A stretch of 64,000 nt of DNA. Origin: Sphingomonadales bacterium (GTDB lineage Bacteria > Pseudomonadota > Alphaproteobacteria > SMXS01). Below are positions 7,860 to 28,104 of this stretch, one piece after another. The stretch lies in contig JALHLV010000008.1 of assembly GCA_022844405.1 (NCBI GenBank), forward strand, positions 1 to 64,000. The letters run 5' to 3'. The notes under the pieces were generated by a model. It was not told the origin of the DNA, did not search any database, and saw nothing but the letters and a program-made list of their open reading frames with translations. Made by a program: the position numbers and the translations under genes. Every line of letters begins with the position of its first letter. Position 1 is the first letter of the stretch.

Positions 7860-8372
7860 ATGAACGACGACCTGAAGTACCTGCGCGACCGCGCCGACCT
7901 GACCGACCTGATCAACAAATACGCCACCGGCATCGACACCCGCGACTGGAAACTCTACCGCTCGATCTTCGCCGACGAGGTCGATATCGACTTCTCGTCC
8001 TACTCGGGCGTCCCCGGCACCCGCATGAAGGGCGACGACTGGGCCAAGGGCGTGCAGGCCATGCTGCCGGGTTTCGACGCCACCCAGCACCTGCTGGCCA
8101 ACATGGTGTTCGACATCAGGGGCGACGAGGCGACGGTTACCGTCTACATGCAGGCCGAGCACTTCCTGCCCAACAGCCTGGGCGATTCCAGCCACACGCT
8201 GGGCGGCTACTACACCCACAAAATCAAGCGCGGCAAGCTCGGCTGGAAGATCCATGGCACGAGGCTGACCGTCACCTGGAGCCGCGGCAACCGCCACGTC
8301 TACGAGCTGGCCCGTCAGCGCGTCGCCGAACGGGCCGCGGCGAAGACGAAGAAAGGCAAGAGGGCCAGGTGA
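7860..8372 (+). CDS. SnoaL-like / NTF2-fold protein
   Basis: A 170-residue protein with the conical alpha+beta barrel pattern of the SnoaL/ring-hydroxylating-beta-subunit group: an N-terminal helical LRDRADLTDLINKYATGIDT, FADEVDIDFSSY, then beta strands ending at KIHGTRLTVTWSRG. Family members are dehydratases, isomerases, cyclases or small accessory subunits. The tail is strongly basic (AAKTKKGKRAR). A GGGGAAG ribosome binding site precedes the ATG. It is the last clear enzyme gene of the P450 operon, and its stop codon overlaps the GTG of a very small downstream frame. Confidence 0.87.
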   Translation: MNDDLKYLRDRADLTDLINKYATGIDTRDWKLYRSIFADEVDIDFSSYSGVPGTRMKGDDWAKGVQAMLPGFDATQHLLANMVFDIRGDEATVTVYMQAEHFLPNSLGDSSHTLGGYYTHKIKRGKLGWKIHGTRLTVTWSRGNRHVYELARQRVAERAAAKTKKGKRAR

Positions 8373-9106: not shown

Positions 9107-9829
9107 CTATTCGCCGGGAACGCCGCGCTTGACGTCGTAGGAGGCGATGGCTTCCTCGACCTGCCTGGGGATGCCGTCGCGCAGCAGCACGCGGATGTGT
9201 TCCTTCAGGTCCTCGAGCAGCCGGCGCTTGCGATAGTCGGCGTCGGTCCACATGAAGCTGACGGCCATGCCGATCATGGCGTATTGCGCCAGGTCGGCGG
9301 TCAGGCCGAACCGGTCGTCCTGGTCGGACAGGGCGTGGGAATGATCGCGGCCGATGCGGTCCCATTCCCGTTCATATTCTTCCTGCGCCGGACGCAGGAT
9401 GCTCTCCAGTTCGGGATCGGTGCGGGCGGCGACGGTCAGTTCGTTATACGCCATGAACAGCGGGTCGGAGATCTGCTGCCACAGCGTCTCGAGCGCGTGG
9501 CCGACGAAATCCTGCTCGCCCTCGATCTGCTCCAGGGTATCGCGGTAGATGGCCAGCCGCTTCTGCTGCAGGTAGGAAACCGCCGCCTTGGTCACGTCCA
9601 CCATGGATGGGAAGTGATAGATGATGGCGCCGCGCGACAGGCCGGTGCGGTCGGCGATCTGCTGCAGCGTGGTGCGGCCATAGCCGACCTCGATATAGGA
9701 GCGGATGACGGCGTCGAGGATTTCGGTGCGGGTCTCCGCGCTCTTGCGCGATTGCCAGGTTTCCCGCCCGTTTTGCCCACGCGCCTTGCCCTTGACCAGT
9801 TCCGACATTTCACCGCCCATCATTGACAT
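9107..9829 (-). CDS. TetR-family transcriptional regulator
   Basis: About 240 residues with an N-terminal TetR helix-turn-helix (TRTEILDAVIRSYIEVGYGR, TTLQQIADRTGLSRGAIIYH) and a longer C-terminal ligand domain. The ATG at 9829 is preferred because AGAGG stands seven bases upstream; in-frame starts reaching 9982 exist, and MSK at 9880 is a second option. Upstream, three copies of a TA(A/C)AGTCG-like half-site lie at 9847-9946, a likely operator. It probably controls the adjacent SnoaL gene and itself. Confidence 0.87.
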   Translation of the reverse strand: MSMMGGEMSELVKGKARGQNGRETWQSRKSAETRTEILDAVIRSYIEVGYGRTTLQQIADRTGLSRGAIIYHFPSMVDVTKAAVSYLQQKRLAIYRDTLEQIEGEQDFVGHALETLWQQISDPLFMAYNELTVAARTDPELESILRPAQEEYEREWDRIGRDHSHALSDQDDRFGLTADLAQYAMIGMAVSFMWTDADYRKRRLLEDLKEHIRVLLRDGIPRQVEEAIASYDVKRGVPGE

Positions 9830-9846
9830 CGCCTCTTCGTCCGCAC

Positions 9847-9946
9847 ATCCGACTATACACAGCCGACCGCTTTTTGACATAACAGTCGGATTTGATTGGC
9901 CTTGACGGTCGAGCGTCCTTGTGTAACGATTGTCATACAGTCGAAA
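9847..9946. promoter_or_regulatory. Candidate operator region of the second TetR regulator
   Basis: ATCCGACT (9847-9854) and AGTCGGAT (9884-9891) form a perfect inverted pair. A third related half-site, ATACAGTCGAAA, lies at 9935-9946. All three share the core A-CAGTCG or its near match. The region directly precedes the tetR gene on the minus strand, where autorepression sites are expected. Confidence 0.35.
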
Positions 9947-10079
9947 CGCCGCCAAACACGGTCCCGGGGAGACCGCCTGCAAGACCCAGAAGATCAGCCA
10001 TAGCTATACACCGAAAACGTTGCCGACCGGTAACATATGTGCGTAACGGCTGACTTGCGCAATATTCAGGGTCCCGGGT

Positions 10080-10225
10080 TTCTCCCACCGACTGACGCGC
10101 TTCTCGATGCGGCCCCTTGCCGCATCGGAGGGGGACACACGGCACGGCATCCGCCACGTGTCCCTTACCCTCCTCCCTGAGGGAACTGAGCACCACCGGT
10201 CCCCGCTGGTGGTGCTCATTTTTTT
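10080..10225 (+). ncRNA. Candidate trans-acting small RNA with anti-Shine-Dalgarno motif
   Basis: On the plus strand, in a gap flanked by minus-strand genes, three hairpins lie in tandem. The first is GATGCGG/CCGCATC (10106-10126). The second is GGGACAC/GTGTCCC (10132-10164). The third is a strong terminator with a 10-bp stem, GAGCACCACC/GGTGGTGCTC (10188-10217), followed by seven T (10219-10225). Between hairpins two and three stands CCTCCTCCC (10169-10177), the anti-Shine-Dalgarno type of loop known from the alphaproteobacterial alpha-r14/NfeR1 sRNA family. No plus-strand gene precedes it that would need this terminator. The 5' end is not defined; 10080 is an estimate. Confidence 0.55.
10188..10225 (+). 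terminator. Rho-independent terminator of the candidate sRNA
   Basis: A perfect 10-bp G+C-rich stem with a 10-base loop is followed by A and seven T on the plus strand only. The minus strand has no T run next to the stem, so it does not serve the histidine kinase gene. Confidence 0.85.
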
Positions 10226-10283
10226 CATCACGGCGGCGCGGGCGCGTTGCAGGGACGGGCAGCCCCCGGCGCAGCAGCGGTCT

Positions 10284-13200
10284 TCAGCCATCCAGCAGCT
10301 CGCGCACCTTGCTGGCGAGCAGTTCGCGCGGGAACGGTTTGGACAGCAGCACGACGCCGTCGTCCAGCCTTCCATGGTGCATCACCGTGTCCTCCGTGTA
10401 GCCGGACATGAACAGGATACGGCACGACGGTACCCGGGCGGCGACCGCCTCGGACACGTCCTTGCCGCTCATGCCCTTGGGCAGCACCACGTCGGCGAGC
10501 AACAGGTCGGGCCGCAGTCCGCCGACGATCAGCTCGACCGCCGCCGGGCCGTCGGGCGCGGCGATCACCTGGTAGCCCAGCGACTTGAGCAACCGGTCGA
10601 CGGTCTGGCGCACGTCCGCATCGTCCTCGACCAGCAGAATGGTCTCGCGGCCAGGCCGCACCGTCTCCTGCACCGGCTTGCGCGACGGCAACGACACCGG
10701 TGCGGCATGGGCGCGGCGAAAATGCAGCGTCACGCGCGTGCCCTCGCCCAGCTTGCTGTCGATGGCGACATGGCCGCCGGACTGCTTGACGAAGCCGTAG
10801 ACCATGGACAGGCCGAGGCCGCTGCCCTTGCCCACCTCCTTGGTGGTGAAGAACGGATCGAACGCCCGCGCCAGCACCTCGGGCGGCATGCCGGTGCCGG
10901 TATCGCTGACCGCGATGCGGACGTGTTCGCCGGGCGAGACGTCGTCGTGTTGCTCGGTGTCGGCGGGCGCGAGCACCACATTGGCGGTCTCGATCCGCAG
11001 CCCGCCGCCATCCGGCATGGCATCGCGCGCATTGACGATCAGGTTGAGCAGCGCCGCCTCGAGCTGGCCGGGATCCACCTCCATGGGCCAGATCGCGGGG
11101 TCCAGCAGGGTGCGGGTCTCGATGTTCTCCTGAAGCAGCCGGTGCAGCAGCTTCATCATGTCGCGGATCAACTCGTTGGCGTCGATGACGCGGGGTTGCA
11201 GCGGTTGCTGGCGCGAGAAGGCGAGCAGGCGCCTGGTCAGTTCGGCACCGCGGTCGACGGCGTCGAGCGCCACGGTGATCGACTCCGACACTTCCGGCCG
11301 GTCGGTCACCAGCATGCCGGCGAGCTCGAGGTTGAGCTGCATGGCCATCAGCAGGTTGTTGAAATCATGGGCGACGCCGCCGACGAGCTGGCCGACGGTC
11401 TCCATCTTCCGGGCCTGGTTCAGGCGCGCCTCGGCCTTCTTCCGGTCGGTCTGGTCGCTGGCGCTGACGATCAGCACCCGCCGGTCGCCGAGGCGCATTT
11501 CACCGACGGCGAGTTCGACGGGAAACTGTTCGCCGCCGCGCCGCACGCCGGTCAGCTCGCGCGGCGCGCCAACCGCCTGCCCGGCGTGGAACGCGGGCAT
11601 CAGCATGGCGATGTCGCGACCTGCTACTTCGGCCGCGTCATAGCAGAACAGCCGCTCGGCCTCCGGATTGAAGGATTCGATCATGCCGCGCTCATCGGCG
11701 GTGATCAGCGCGACCGAGACCGATTCCATGATCGCCCTGTTGCGCGCCTCGCTTTCCTGCAGCTGCTCGACGACGTTCTGCTCGGCCGTGATGTCGGCCA
11801 CATAACCTTCGAGCGCGACCACCTTGTCCTGGTCGTCGCGGATGGCGCTTCCCTGCTCGAGCACCCAGCGCAATTCGCCCTGCCTGGTGTTGACCCGGTA
11901 GGAGAGCTGGAAGGTGCGGCGGTCGCCGATGGCGGTCTGGATCCCGTCCCAGACGCGTTGACGGTCGCGCGGGTCGATCACCTCGCTGTACGAGATCACC
12001 TTGTTGTCGATCAGGTCCTCAGCCTCGTAGCCAAGGACGCGGCGGCAGGCGTCGCTGACGAACCGCATGGTCCACCGCTCGTCGTTGTCGCAGCGATAGA
12101 CCACGCCCGACAGGTTGCGCATCAGCGCCGACATGGCGCGTCCGGTCTCGCGGTGAGCCTCCTCCAGCTGGCGGAATCCGGTGACGTCCTGGAGCAGACC
12201 AGCGAGGCCGGTCACGTTGCCGGCGCCATCGCGTTCGGTTTCCAGCATGACCCGGAGATGGATGGCGCCGCCGTTCGGCGAGAGATAGCGGTACTGCAAC
12301 TGGGCGTTGTCGGCATCGCCGCGTCTGAGACGCTGGAAGGTTGTTGCGACGCGCTCCAGGTCATCCGGATGGACCTCCCGCATCGCCACCTCGGCGCTGT
12401 AGACGGCATGATTGTCGTCAAGGCCCAGAATCTTTCGCGTTTCCGCAGGTATGGCGTAGAAACCCATGGCCATGTCGTAGTGCCAGGGCCCGAGCCGCGC
12501 CAGCGCCTGCGCCTGGCGAAGCTGGCCTTCCCGCCGCGACAGTTCGGCGAGCGCCCTATTGCGTTCGGTCACGTCCAGGTAGGACCCGATGACGCGGAAC
12601 GGCTCGCCCTCCTCGTCGCGCACGACGCCGGCGAGGATCGCCACGTCGAACTCGCTGCCGTCGGCCCTCACCATGCTCACCTCGCCGGTCCAGCGGCCGG
12701 TCTCACGCAGGACATCGGCTGAGCCGGCGACCTTGTCAGGCTCGGTGATGAAGTCGAGGAAGCGGCTGCCGACGACATCGTCGAACGACGAATAGCCCAG
12801 CAGTTCCACGAACGCGCTGTTGCCATAGGTGTAGTAACCGTCGAGCGTCGCCATGGTGAGCGGGCTGGCGGCGGTCTCGAAAGCCCGGTCGCGGAAGGCC
12901 AGCTCCTGCTGTGCCAGGCGCTGGTCGGTGATGTCCTGGACGGTGCCGTGGATCAGCGAGGGCTCGCCAGCGCTGTCCCGGCTGGCCCGGATGGCAAGGC
13001 GCAGCCAGATGGTGGCGCCGTCCGGCCTGACGACACGGGTCATCAGTTCGGGACGCGGCTCGAGCCCCGATCGGGCGCGGGCGACCCTTTCGGCCACGTC
13101 CGCCGCGTCCGAGGGGTGGACATGGGATACCAGTTCACTCATCCGGATGGTGATCGCCTTGTCGCCCAGACCCAGCAGCCGGCACATCTCGGGCGAACAG

Positions 13201-13721
13201 AAGACCCTGTCGGTCTTCACATCCCAGTCCCAGGTGCCCACATGGGCGATCTGCTGGGCGATCTCCAGGGTCCTCTCGGTGGCTTCCTTCGCCGCCTCGG
13301 CCTCGACGAGCCGGGTGATCACTTCCGTCAGCATGATCATGCCGAGCGGCAGGCCTGCATCCGCCTTCAGCGGCACCAACTCCCGGCGAATATGGACGAC
13401 GCTGCCGTCCGACCGCTCGAAGCGATCTTCCTCGCACAGCAGCGTTTCGCCCGCGAGGCACCGCGCATGCTCGGCCTTCCAGCGTTCCGGCACGTCGGGA
13501 AACACGTCATAGTGGCTGCGGCCGAGGATCTGCTGGTCGCCCAGCTCGTAGTCCTCGTACCAGCGGCGGCTGGCCGCCAGATACCGCATGTCCCGATCGA
13601 CCATGGCGATGGCCGAAGGCGCCCGCTCGAACAGCAGACGCACGAAGTCGCCTCCCGCGCCGCCTGAAAACAGCCCATCGAGCGCGCCGAGATCCACATA
13701 CTCGCGTTCAGCCAGGCTCAT
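10284..13721 (-). CDS. Multi-PAS hybrid sensor histidine kinase with C-terminal receiver
   Basis: A 1145-residue protein with no obvious membrane segment. I count six PAS-like modules from about residue 15 to 770 (for example SAIAMVDRDMRYLAASRRWY, HVGTWDWDVKTDRVFCSPEM, SVALITADERGMIESFNPEA). After them come an H-box GGVAHDFNNLL, an HATPase domain (SGLGLSMVYGFVKQSGG) and a receiver domain with phospho-acceptor Asp in LLLADVVLP and Lys in LLSKPF. It is probably a cytoplasmic sensor of redox, light, gas or ligand signals with internal phosphorelay. No separate response regulator gene is adjacent, so output must pass through a distant partner. The ATG at 13721 has a reasonable context (GGTTCATG). 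Confidence 0.93.
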   Translation of the reverse strand: MSLAEREYVDLGALDGLFSGGAGGDFVRLLFERAPSAIAMVDRDMRYLAASRRWYEDYELGDQQILGRSHYDVFPDVPERWKAEHARCLAGETLLCEEDRFERSDGSVVHIRRELVPLKADAGLPLGMIMLTEVITRLVEAEAAKEATERTLEIAQQIAHVGTWDWDVKTDRVFCSPEMCRLLGLGDKAITIRMSELVSHVHPSDAADVAERVARARSGLEPRPELMTRVVRPDGATIWLRLAIRASRDSAGEPSLIHGTVQDITDQRLAQQELAFRDRAFETAASPLTMATLDGYYTYGNSAFVELLGYSSFDDVVGSRFLDFITEPDKVAGSADVLRETGRWTGEVSMVRADGSEFDVAILAGVVRDEEGEPFRVIGSYLDVTERNRALAELSRREGQLRQAQALARLGPWHYDMAMGFYAIPAETRKILGLDDNHAVYSAEVAMREVHPDDLERVATTFQRLRRGDADNAQLQYRYLSPNGGAIHLRVMLETERDGAGNVTGLAGLLQDVTGFRQLEEAHRETGRAMSALMRNLSGVVYRCDNDERWTMRFVSDACRRVLGYEAEDLIDNKVISYSEVIDPRDRQRVWDGIQTAIGDRRTFQLSYRVNTRQGELRWVLEQGSAIRDDQDKVVALEGYVADITAEQNVVEQLQESEARNRAIMESVSVALITADERGMIESFNPEAERLFCYDAAEVAGRDIAMLMPAFHAGQAVGAPRELTGVRRGGEQFPVELAVGEMRLGDRRVLIVSASDQTDRKKAEARLNQARKMETVGQLVGGVAHDFNNLLMAMQLNLELAGMLVTDRPEVSESITVALDAVDRGAELTRRLLAFSRQQPLQPRVIDANELIRDMMKLLHRLLQENIETRTLLDPAIWPMEVDPGQLEAALLNLIVNARDAMPDGGGLRIETANVVLAPADTEQHDDVSPGEHVRIAVSDTGTGMPPEVLARAFDPFFTTKEVGKGSGLGLSMVYGFVKQSGGHVAIDSKLGEGTRVTLHFRRAHAAPVSLPSRKPVQETVRPGRETILLVEDDADVRQTVDRLLKSLGYQVIAAPDGPAAVELIVGGLRPDLLLADVVLPKGMSGKDVSEAVAARVPSCRILFMSGYTEDTVMHHGRLDDGVVLLSKPFPRELLASKVRELLDG

Positions 13722-26961: not shown

Positions 26962-28104
26962 GTGTCACAGTTCAATACGCTATTGGGCGCCGCGGTCGCT
27001 GCGGCATTGTTGAGCGCTTGCGCGGCGCAGCAGGCCGCGGCGCCGCCACCGCCGCCGCCGCCACCGCCTGTCGCAGCGCCCGTCGAGGCGGCTCCCGCTG
27101 CGGTCGAACCGGTCTATACGGCGACACCCGACCTGAAGCCCAAGGAGCGTTTCAGGAAGGCGGTCAAGGACCTCGAGACCGGCCAGGCCGGACAGGCCAA
27201 GGCCGAACTGCTGCAGTATCTGGTCGACGTGCCCGAGAACAACAGGCGCGCCCAGGCGCTGCTGTCGCAGATCGAATCCCCGATCGAGGAATACTTCCCG
27301 CCGGAAAGCTTCACGGTCGTGGTGGGCACCGGCGAGTCGATCTCGACGCTGTCCCAGACATTCCTGGGCGACGCCCTGAAGTTCTACGCGCTGTCGCGCT
27401 ACAACGGCATTGCCAATCCCAGCCAGGTTTCGGTGGGCCAGACCATCAAGATCCCGCGGACGCCGCAGACGCTGGCGGCCAAGGACGCGCGTGACAAGGG
27501 CATCGTCGCCAAGCCGGCGGCGCCCGAGGCCGCACTGGCCGCCGCCGTCGAGGAAGAGGAGGAGGAACAGCCCGCCGCCGAAACCAAGCCGCCGCCCGCC
27601 AGGGCCGTGCCGAAGGGCACCATGGAAAGAATTCGCGGCATGGCCGCGTCCGGCAACACCGACGGTGCGATCAAGGAGATCGAGGCCAACAAGCTGGGTG
27701 CGGGCCTGTCGACGGCCGACGCGACCTTCGTCGCCGACACCTACCTGGCGAGCGCCAGGTCGTTGCAGGGATCGAACCCGGCTCTGGCCGGAACGCGCGC
27801 CCAGAAGGCCGGCGACATGTATCTGAAGATGGGCGACAAGCCGGACAAGGCGCTGGAAGCCGCCCAGATGGCCTCCACGCTCAACCCCGGCGGCGCCGGC
27901 ACCCAGAAGCTGTTGACCTCGGCCAAGACCGCGGCCGCGGACCGCCACTACCGCAACGGCCTGTCGGCGTTCCGCAAGCAGGAGCTGGATGCGGCGATCA
28001 AGGCGTGGGACAAGGTGCTGGAGATCGACCCCAACCACGAGAACGCCAAGCTGCAGCGCGCTCAGGCCGTTGAACTGAAGGAGAAGCTCTCCAAGCTTCG
28101 GTGA
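26962..28104 (+). CDS. LysM and TPR-containing lipoprotein
   Basis: About 380 residues. A lipoprotein signal peptide ends at the lipobox LLSACA, then a run of nine prolines in a Pro/Ala-rich linker would span the periplasm. A helical region (PKERFRKAVKDLETGQAGQA) precedes a LysM-like motif (VVVGTGESISTLSQTFLG ... NPSQVSVGQTIKIP), which binds peptidoglycan glycan chains. An acidic Glu-rich linker and C-terminal TPR repeats (LSAFRKQELDAAIKAWDKVL) follow. The GTG at 26962 sits eight bases after GGGGG and is favoured over a GTG at 26956. It is followed by a terminator and faces a second TPR lipoprotein gene, suggesting a shared envelope role. Confidence 0.85.
   Translation: MSQFNTLLGAAVAAALLSACAAQQAAAPPPPPPPPPVAAPVEAAPAAVEPVYTATPDLKPKERFRKAVKDLETGQAGQAKAELLQYLVDVPENNRRAQALLSQIESPIEEYFPPESFTVVVGTGESISTLSQTFLGDALKFYALSRYNGIANPSQVSVGQTIKIPRTPQTLAAKDARDKGIVAKPAAPEAALAAAVEEEEEEQPAAETKPPPARAVPKGTMERIRGMAASGNTDGAIKEIEANKLGAGLSTADATFVADTYLASARSLQGSNPALAGTRAQKAGDMYLKMGDKPDKALEAAQMASTLNPGGAGTQKLLTSAKTAAADRHYRNGLSAFRKQELDAAIKAWDKVLEIDPNHENAKLQRAQAVELKEKLSKLR

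Follow-up and report, generated by a model that had tools for sequence, protein, structure and literature searches.

Organization of the locus

The window, that is, the whole 64-kb stretch of DNA analyzed, carries on its plus strand a putative structured RNA element placed between two minus-strand genes, a divergent TetR-family regulator gene and a convergent hybrid histidine kinase gene (Table 1). The three hairpins, the anti-Shine-Dalgarno (anti-SD) motif and the terminator that the preliminary description had placed in this gap were confirmed in the sequence and in the predicted fold. The minimum free energy of the segment 10070-10226 is -78.3 kcal/mol, versus -54.9 +/- 3.9 kcal/mol for dinucleotide-shuffled sequences (z -5.96, 0/200 shuffles).

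The terminator stem extends from 10187 to 10218 and is followed by seven T at 10219-10225. It is the sole terminator-like site within 9800-10400, and its U-run is found on the plus strand only. As had been claimed earlier, no upstream gene on that strand needs this terminator: the nearest plausible one ends at 8372, approximately 1.7 kb away, with minus-strand genes in between. Of the extent first proposed for the element, 10080-10225, the end was retained and the start was not, given that the conserved unit begins at approximately 10100.

Table 1. Features of the candidate sRNA locus, in positions of the window
Feature	Position	Strand	Evidence and remarks
TetR-family regulator gene, divergent neighbor	9107-9811 (start codon approximate)	-	Pfam TetR_N 6.2e-11; syntenic in 6/6 species
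Upstream box CTATACACCGAAAACGTTGCCGACCGGTAACATATGTG, located between TetR gene and sRNA; promoter/operator candidate	10004-10041	+ (tentative)	38 bp, conserved in 6/6 species
Imperfect palindrome GTTGCCG-AC-CGGTAAC, candidate TetR-family operator	10019-10034		Both strands match, with 0 and 1 mismatch
sRNA core, three hairpins and terminator	10100-10225	+	Sequence, predicted fold, conservation
Hairpin 1, GAUGCGGC / GCCGCAUC, outer CUUC/GGAG	~10100-10131	+	Fold; one compensatory pair
Hairpin 2, GGGACAC / GUGUCCC and inner helix	10132-10164	+	Fold; two compensatory pairs
Hairpin 3, CCCUC-CUCCCU-GAGGG, bearing the anti-SD motif	10168-10183	+	Invariant across six species
Anti-SD motif CCTCCTCCC (RNA form CCUCCUCCC)	10169-10177	+	Single copy, in hairpin 3
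Intrinsic terminator, 14-bp stem, 4-nt loop, U7 tail	10187-10225	+	All cells paired; one compensatory pair
Hybrid histidine kinase gene (PAS repeats, HisKA/HATPase, receiver), convergent	10284-13721	-	Syntenic in 6/6 species

Conservation within and beyond the genus

A search of 60 relatives recovered the locus in six genomes of the genus, including that of the window, and every one of the six genus members with an assembled locus has the candidate sRNA in the corresponding position. The conservation in relatives on which the preliminary description had staked its proposal was therefore found. The gene order, SnoaL, TetR (minus), RNA (plus), kinase (minus) and ileS, is also shared by the six species. 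The sRNA is missing from a seventh member of the genus (G001), where an apparent assembly gap makes this uninformative for absence; in this genome the kinase gene gives only a partial match close to the end of a contig, and the TetR ortholog is likewise absent.

The core shares 89-96% of its bases with the window copy, whereas identity at four-fold degenerate sites of the TetR gene next to it is 52-83%. Identity rises to 90-100% in the half that contains the motif and the terminator, and a 23-nt block that includes the motif, TACCCTCCTCCCTGAGGGAACTG, is invariant in the six species. Four base pairs show compensatory changes, a count matched by 0/500 shuffles, and slid structures score 0-1. Hairpin 3 shows no variation and cannot be tested by covariation. 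Across the six species the loop of hairpin 1 changes in length and an insertion occurs just after this hairpin, which precludes a conserved reading frame across this hairpin. Judged by this conservation in six species, the feature goes well beyond chance.

A covariance model was built from the six genus copies, which themselves score 125-152 bits. With this model, no convincing further match emerged from 289 genomes of the class or from the ten of the order. The sole match outside the genus in the 289-genome search (G121, 25 bits) is weak; it owes its resemblance to the sRNA largely to the terminator and does not contain the motif, and a match in G009 is also mainly a terminator. Plasmid and phage collections and viral contigs gave no match to the sRNA. 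A Clostridium contig contains the exact 21-mer; the flanking bases form neither hairpins nor a terminator and look like coding sequence, and the contig was set aside as a chance match.

Most of the database records that contain the invariant block are metagenome bins, whose titles are unreliable (Alphaproteobacteria bacterium, "Rhizobium sp.", Candidatus Kuenenia). It is from these titles that the genus is assigned to the Alphaproteobacteria. One of these, CALQFM020000058.1 (L062), is titled Candidatus Kuenenia stuttgartiensis and bears the locus of the window's genus; the bin appears to be mislabelled.

The anti-SD motif and its predicted exposure

The 9-mer CCTCCTCCC is not remarkable by itself, either in the window, where it occurs twice versus 0.8 times expected, or in the genome, where its 19 sites fall below the 27 of the reversed control. 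It is the context that sets the sRNA copy apart, since none of the 16 other sites analyzed in the genome has a T-run within 100 bases. In the predicted fold, the first half of CCUCCUCCC is base-paired in the stem of hairpin 3 (CCCUC/GAGGG, closed) and CUCCCU remains exposed in the loop, with a predicted unpaired value of 0.64-1.00 and an open loop in all six species.

Candidate control region

The upstream box is unique in the genome, and the stretch that separates it from the sRNA core varies in both length and letters across the six species. It is the foremost candidate for the sRNA's promoter/operator region, although the TetR gene could make use of it as well. A sigma-70 consensus promoter was not found on the plus strand. 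The palindrome within the box showed no genome-wide enrichment over its reversed control, and it is therefore at most a local site. A further conserved block, closer to the TetR gene than the box, includes a minus-strand promoter-like site. The block CTTTTTGACATAACAGTCGGATTTGATT..CTTGACGGT (9868-9907) is strongly conserved ahead of the TetR gene and is probably the TetR promoter/operator.

Relation to known sRNA families and alternative explanations

Anti-SD sRNAs have been described in Rhizobiales and Rhodobacter. Those of the alpha-r14/NfeR1 type silence transporter or ntrB mRNAs by pairing with the ribosome binding site, and MmgR/alpha-r8 combines a short pyrimidine-rich anti-SD loop with a terminator, as is seen at the present locus. 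The locus had been described as an alpha-r14/NfeR1-like sRNA. Conservation, structure and terminator lend good support to a free-standing anti-SD sRNA, whereas membership in that family is not supported. Comparison with the Rfam covariance models for alpha-r14 and related families, suggested at the time as a check, gave no score above the cut-offs. Nothing was found in the window at gathering thresholds, and the alpha-r14 model (ar14, RF02344, gathering score 58.8 bits; RF02346 is ar35) gave no match at the locus in a region scan with E up to 10. A genome search with RF02344 returned matches only elsewhere, all far below the cut-off. MmgR/alpha-r8 (RF00519, suhB) likewise has no match at the locus.

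The sRNA resembles alpha-r14/NfeR1 of S. meliloti in its ~120-nt class, its several hairpins, the nonamer CCUCCUCCC and the intrinsic terminator, and ribosome-site blocking, the known mode of NfeR1, is also the mode expected for it. However, the defining trait of NfeR1 is the presence of an unpaired CCUCCUCCC in each of three hairpins (PMC10746234, PMC3927594), whereas the window sRNA has a single nonamer, half of it paired in a stem-loop, and its stems are unrelated. What it shares with CcsR1 and the cuckoo RNAs of Rhodobacter (RF02791) is a CCUCCUCCC hairpin with a terminator-like hairpin after it. Both hairpins of the CcsR1 model bear the motif, in contrast to the single motif found here, and CcsR1-4 form an array behind ccaF1 (DUF1127) that is processed by RNase E (PMC10253847), while the window sRNA is a single gene between tetR and the kinase gene.

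It may nevertheless be asked whether the locus holds a true alpha-r14/cuckoo member (NfeR1, CcsR) that has diverged and lost motif copies. The same nonamer does adjoin a terminator hairpin, and CcsR1 is the best sRNA match at the locus (E 0.0017 in a 451-base scan), also matching in three relatives with 19.4-24.3 bits. The score at the locus is nonetheless 23.3 bits versus a gathering score of 65.3, RF02344 is silent there, and neither the half-buried single motif nor the neighborhood fits: there is no DUF1127 gene beside the sRNA, its neighbors being TetR, SnoaL, the histidine kinase and, in three species, ModE. We regard such a descent as decidedly unlikely. The sRNA plausibly works like NfeR1/CcsR and constitutes a separate family that is not listed by Rfam. 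A separate anti-SD family in another lineage, sharing the nonamer and having unrelated stems, suggests that this silencing mode arose, or was rebuilt, more than once.

The remaining alternatives concern the genes around the sRNA. In three of the six species (L010:6419-6778 and the syntenic places in L007 and L008), a ModE-domain gene (TIGR00637 4e-23, a match below the cut-off) separates the RNA from the kinase gene and follows the RNA immediately on its strand. The RNA could act in cis as the 5' leader or attenuator of this gene, kept by descent where modE was lost. Yet in the other three species, that of the window included, modE is absent and no plus-strand gene lies directly downstream, and the RNA is intact there, its motif block unchanged and its terminator perfect, which argues against a mere leader function. 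The predicted folds, moreover, keep the terminator stem fully formed without a competing antiterminator, and we consider the leader unlikely. That the locus encodes no regulatory RNA, and that the element only terminates the convergent genes or belongs to their 3' UTR, might be suggested by the 58 bp that separate the stem from the end of the kinase gene. This is highly unlikely in view of the plus-strand U-run, the lack of a plus-strand gene ahead of the terminator, the conservation of hairpins 1-3, and the compensatory changes that lie beyond the terminator.

Proposed function

The intact RNA in the three species without a downstream plus-strand gene makes a trans-acting sRNA the best reading. 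A free-standing, conserved and structured RNA with its own terminator and a predicted exposed anti-SD loop, as found here, is what characterizes a trans-acting anti-SD sRNA. We estimate at roughly 70% the probability that the locus is the gene of such an sRNA, which would block Shine-Dalgarno sequences and would probably be controlled by TetR.

Plus-strand transcription of the core would start at a promoter that probably lies in or near the upstream box, with the divergent TetR regulator in probable control, and would end at the core's own terminator. The CUCCCU loop of hairpin 3 may start pairing with AGGGAG of a Shine-Dalgarno sequence, and the pairing would extend as the stem opens and frees the rest of CCUCCUCCC. 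The G-rich Shine-Dalgarno sequences (AGGGAGG) of several mRNAs would be bound in this way and their translation blocked, probably with the help of Hfq; hfq is encoded in the genome.

Many strong Shine-Dalgarno sites could pair with the anti-SD block, which leaves target specificity unexplained and counts against the proposal, as do the lack of a plus-strand sigma-70 consensus promoter and the burial of half the motif in a stem. Only some two plausible start sites of the genome carry the full complement of the block, GGGAGGAGG, and none of the neighboring genes stands out as a target. Start sites with AGGGAGGA shared by relatives belong to a clpB-like gene (2/4 species), an SDR gene (3) and a gene for a VOC-like protein (2), all named from sequence. 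These sites are leads and not evidence, because close species conserve Shine-Dalgarno sequences anyway. A more specific version, a genus-restricted and TetR-controlled sRNA family that tunes many mRNAs with strong Shine-Dalgarno sequences (e.g., clpB and SDR) and also acts as the modE leader in some species, is improbable; if true, its role as modE leader would link the sRNA to molybdenum regulation. The locus offers a defined place to test how so general an RNA seed finds specific targets.

An additional candidate sRNA elsewhere in the genome

A second candidate sRNA was noted at L053:1498-1606 (G000:C4, ~27031-27139), upstream of a probable lgt gene. It combines a hairpin with the loop UUUUUCCCUCCCUUAU, a free CUCCCU and a terminator, with a fold z of -7.1. 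This candidate is MmgR-like, its best Rfam match being MmgR/suhB (RF00519) with 29.8 bits versus a cut-off of 41.
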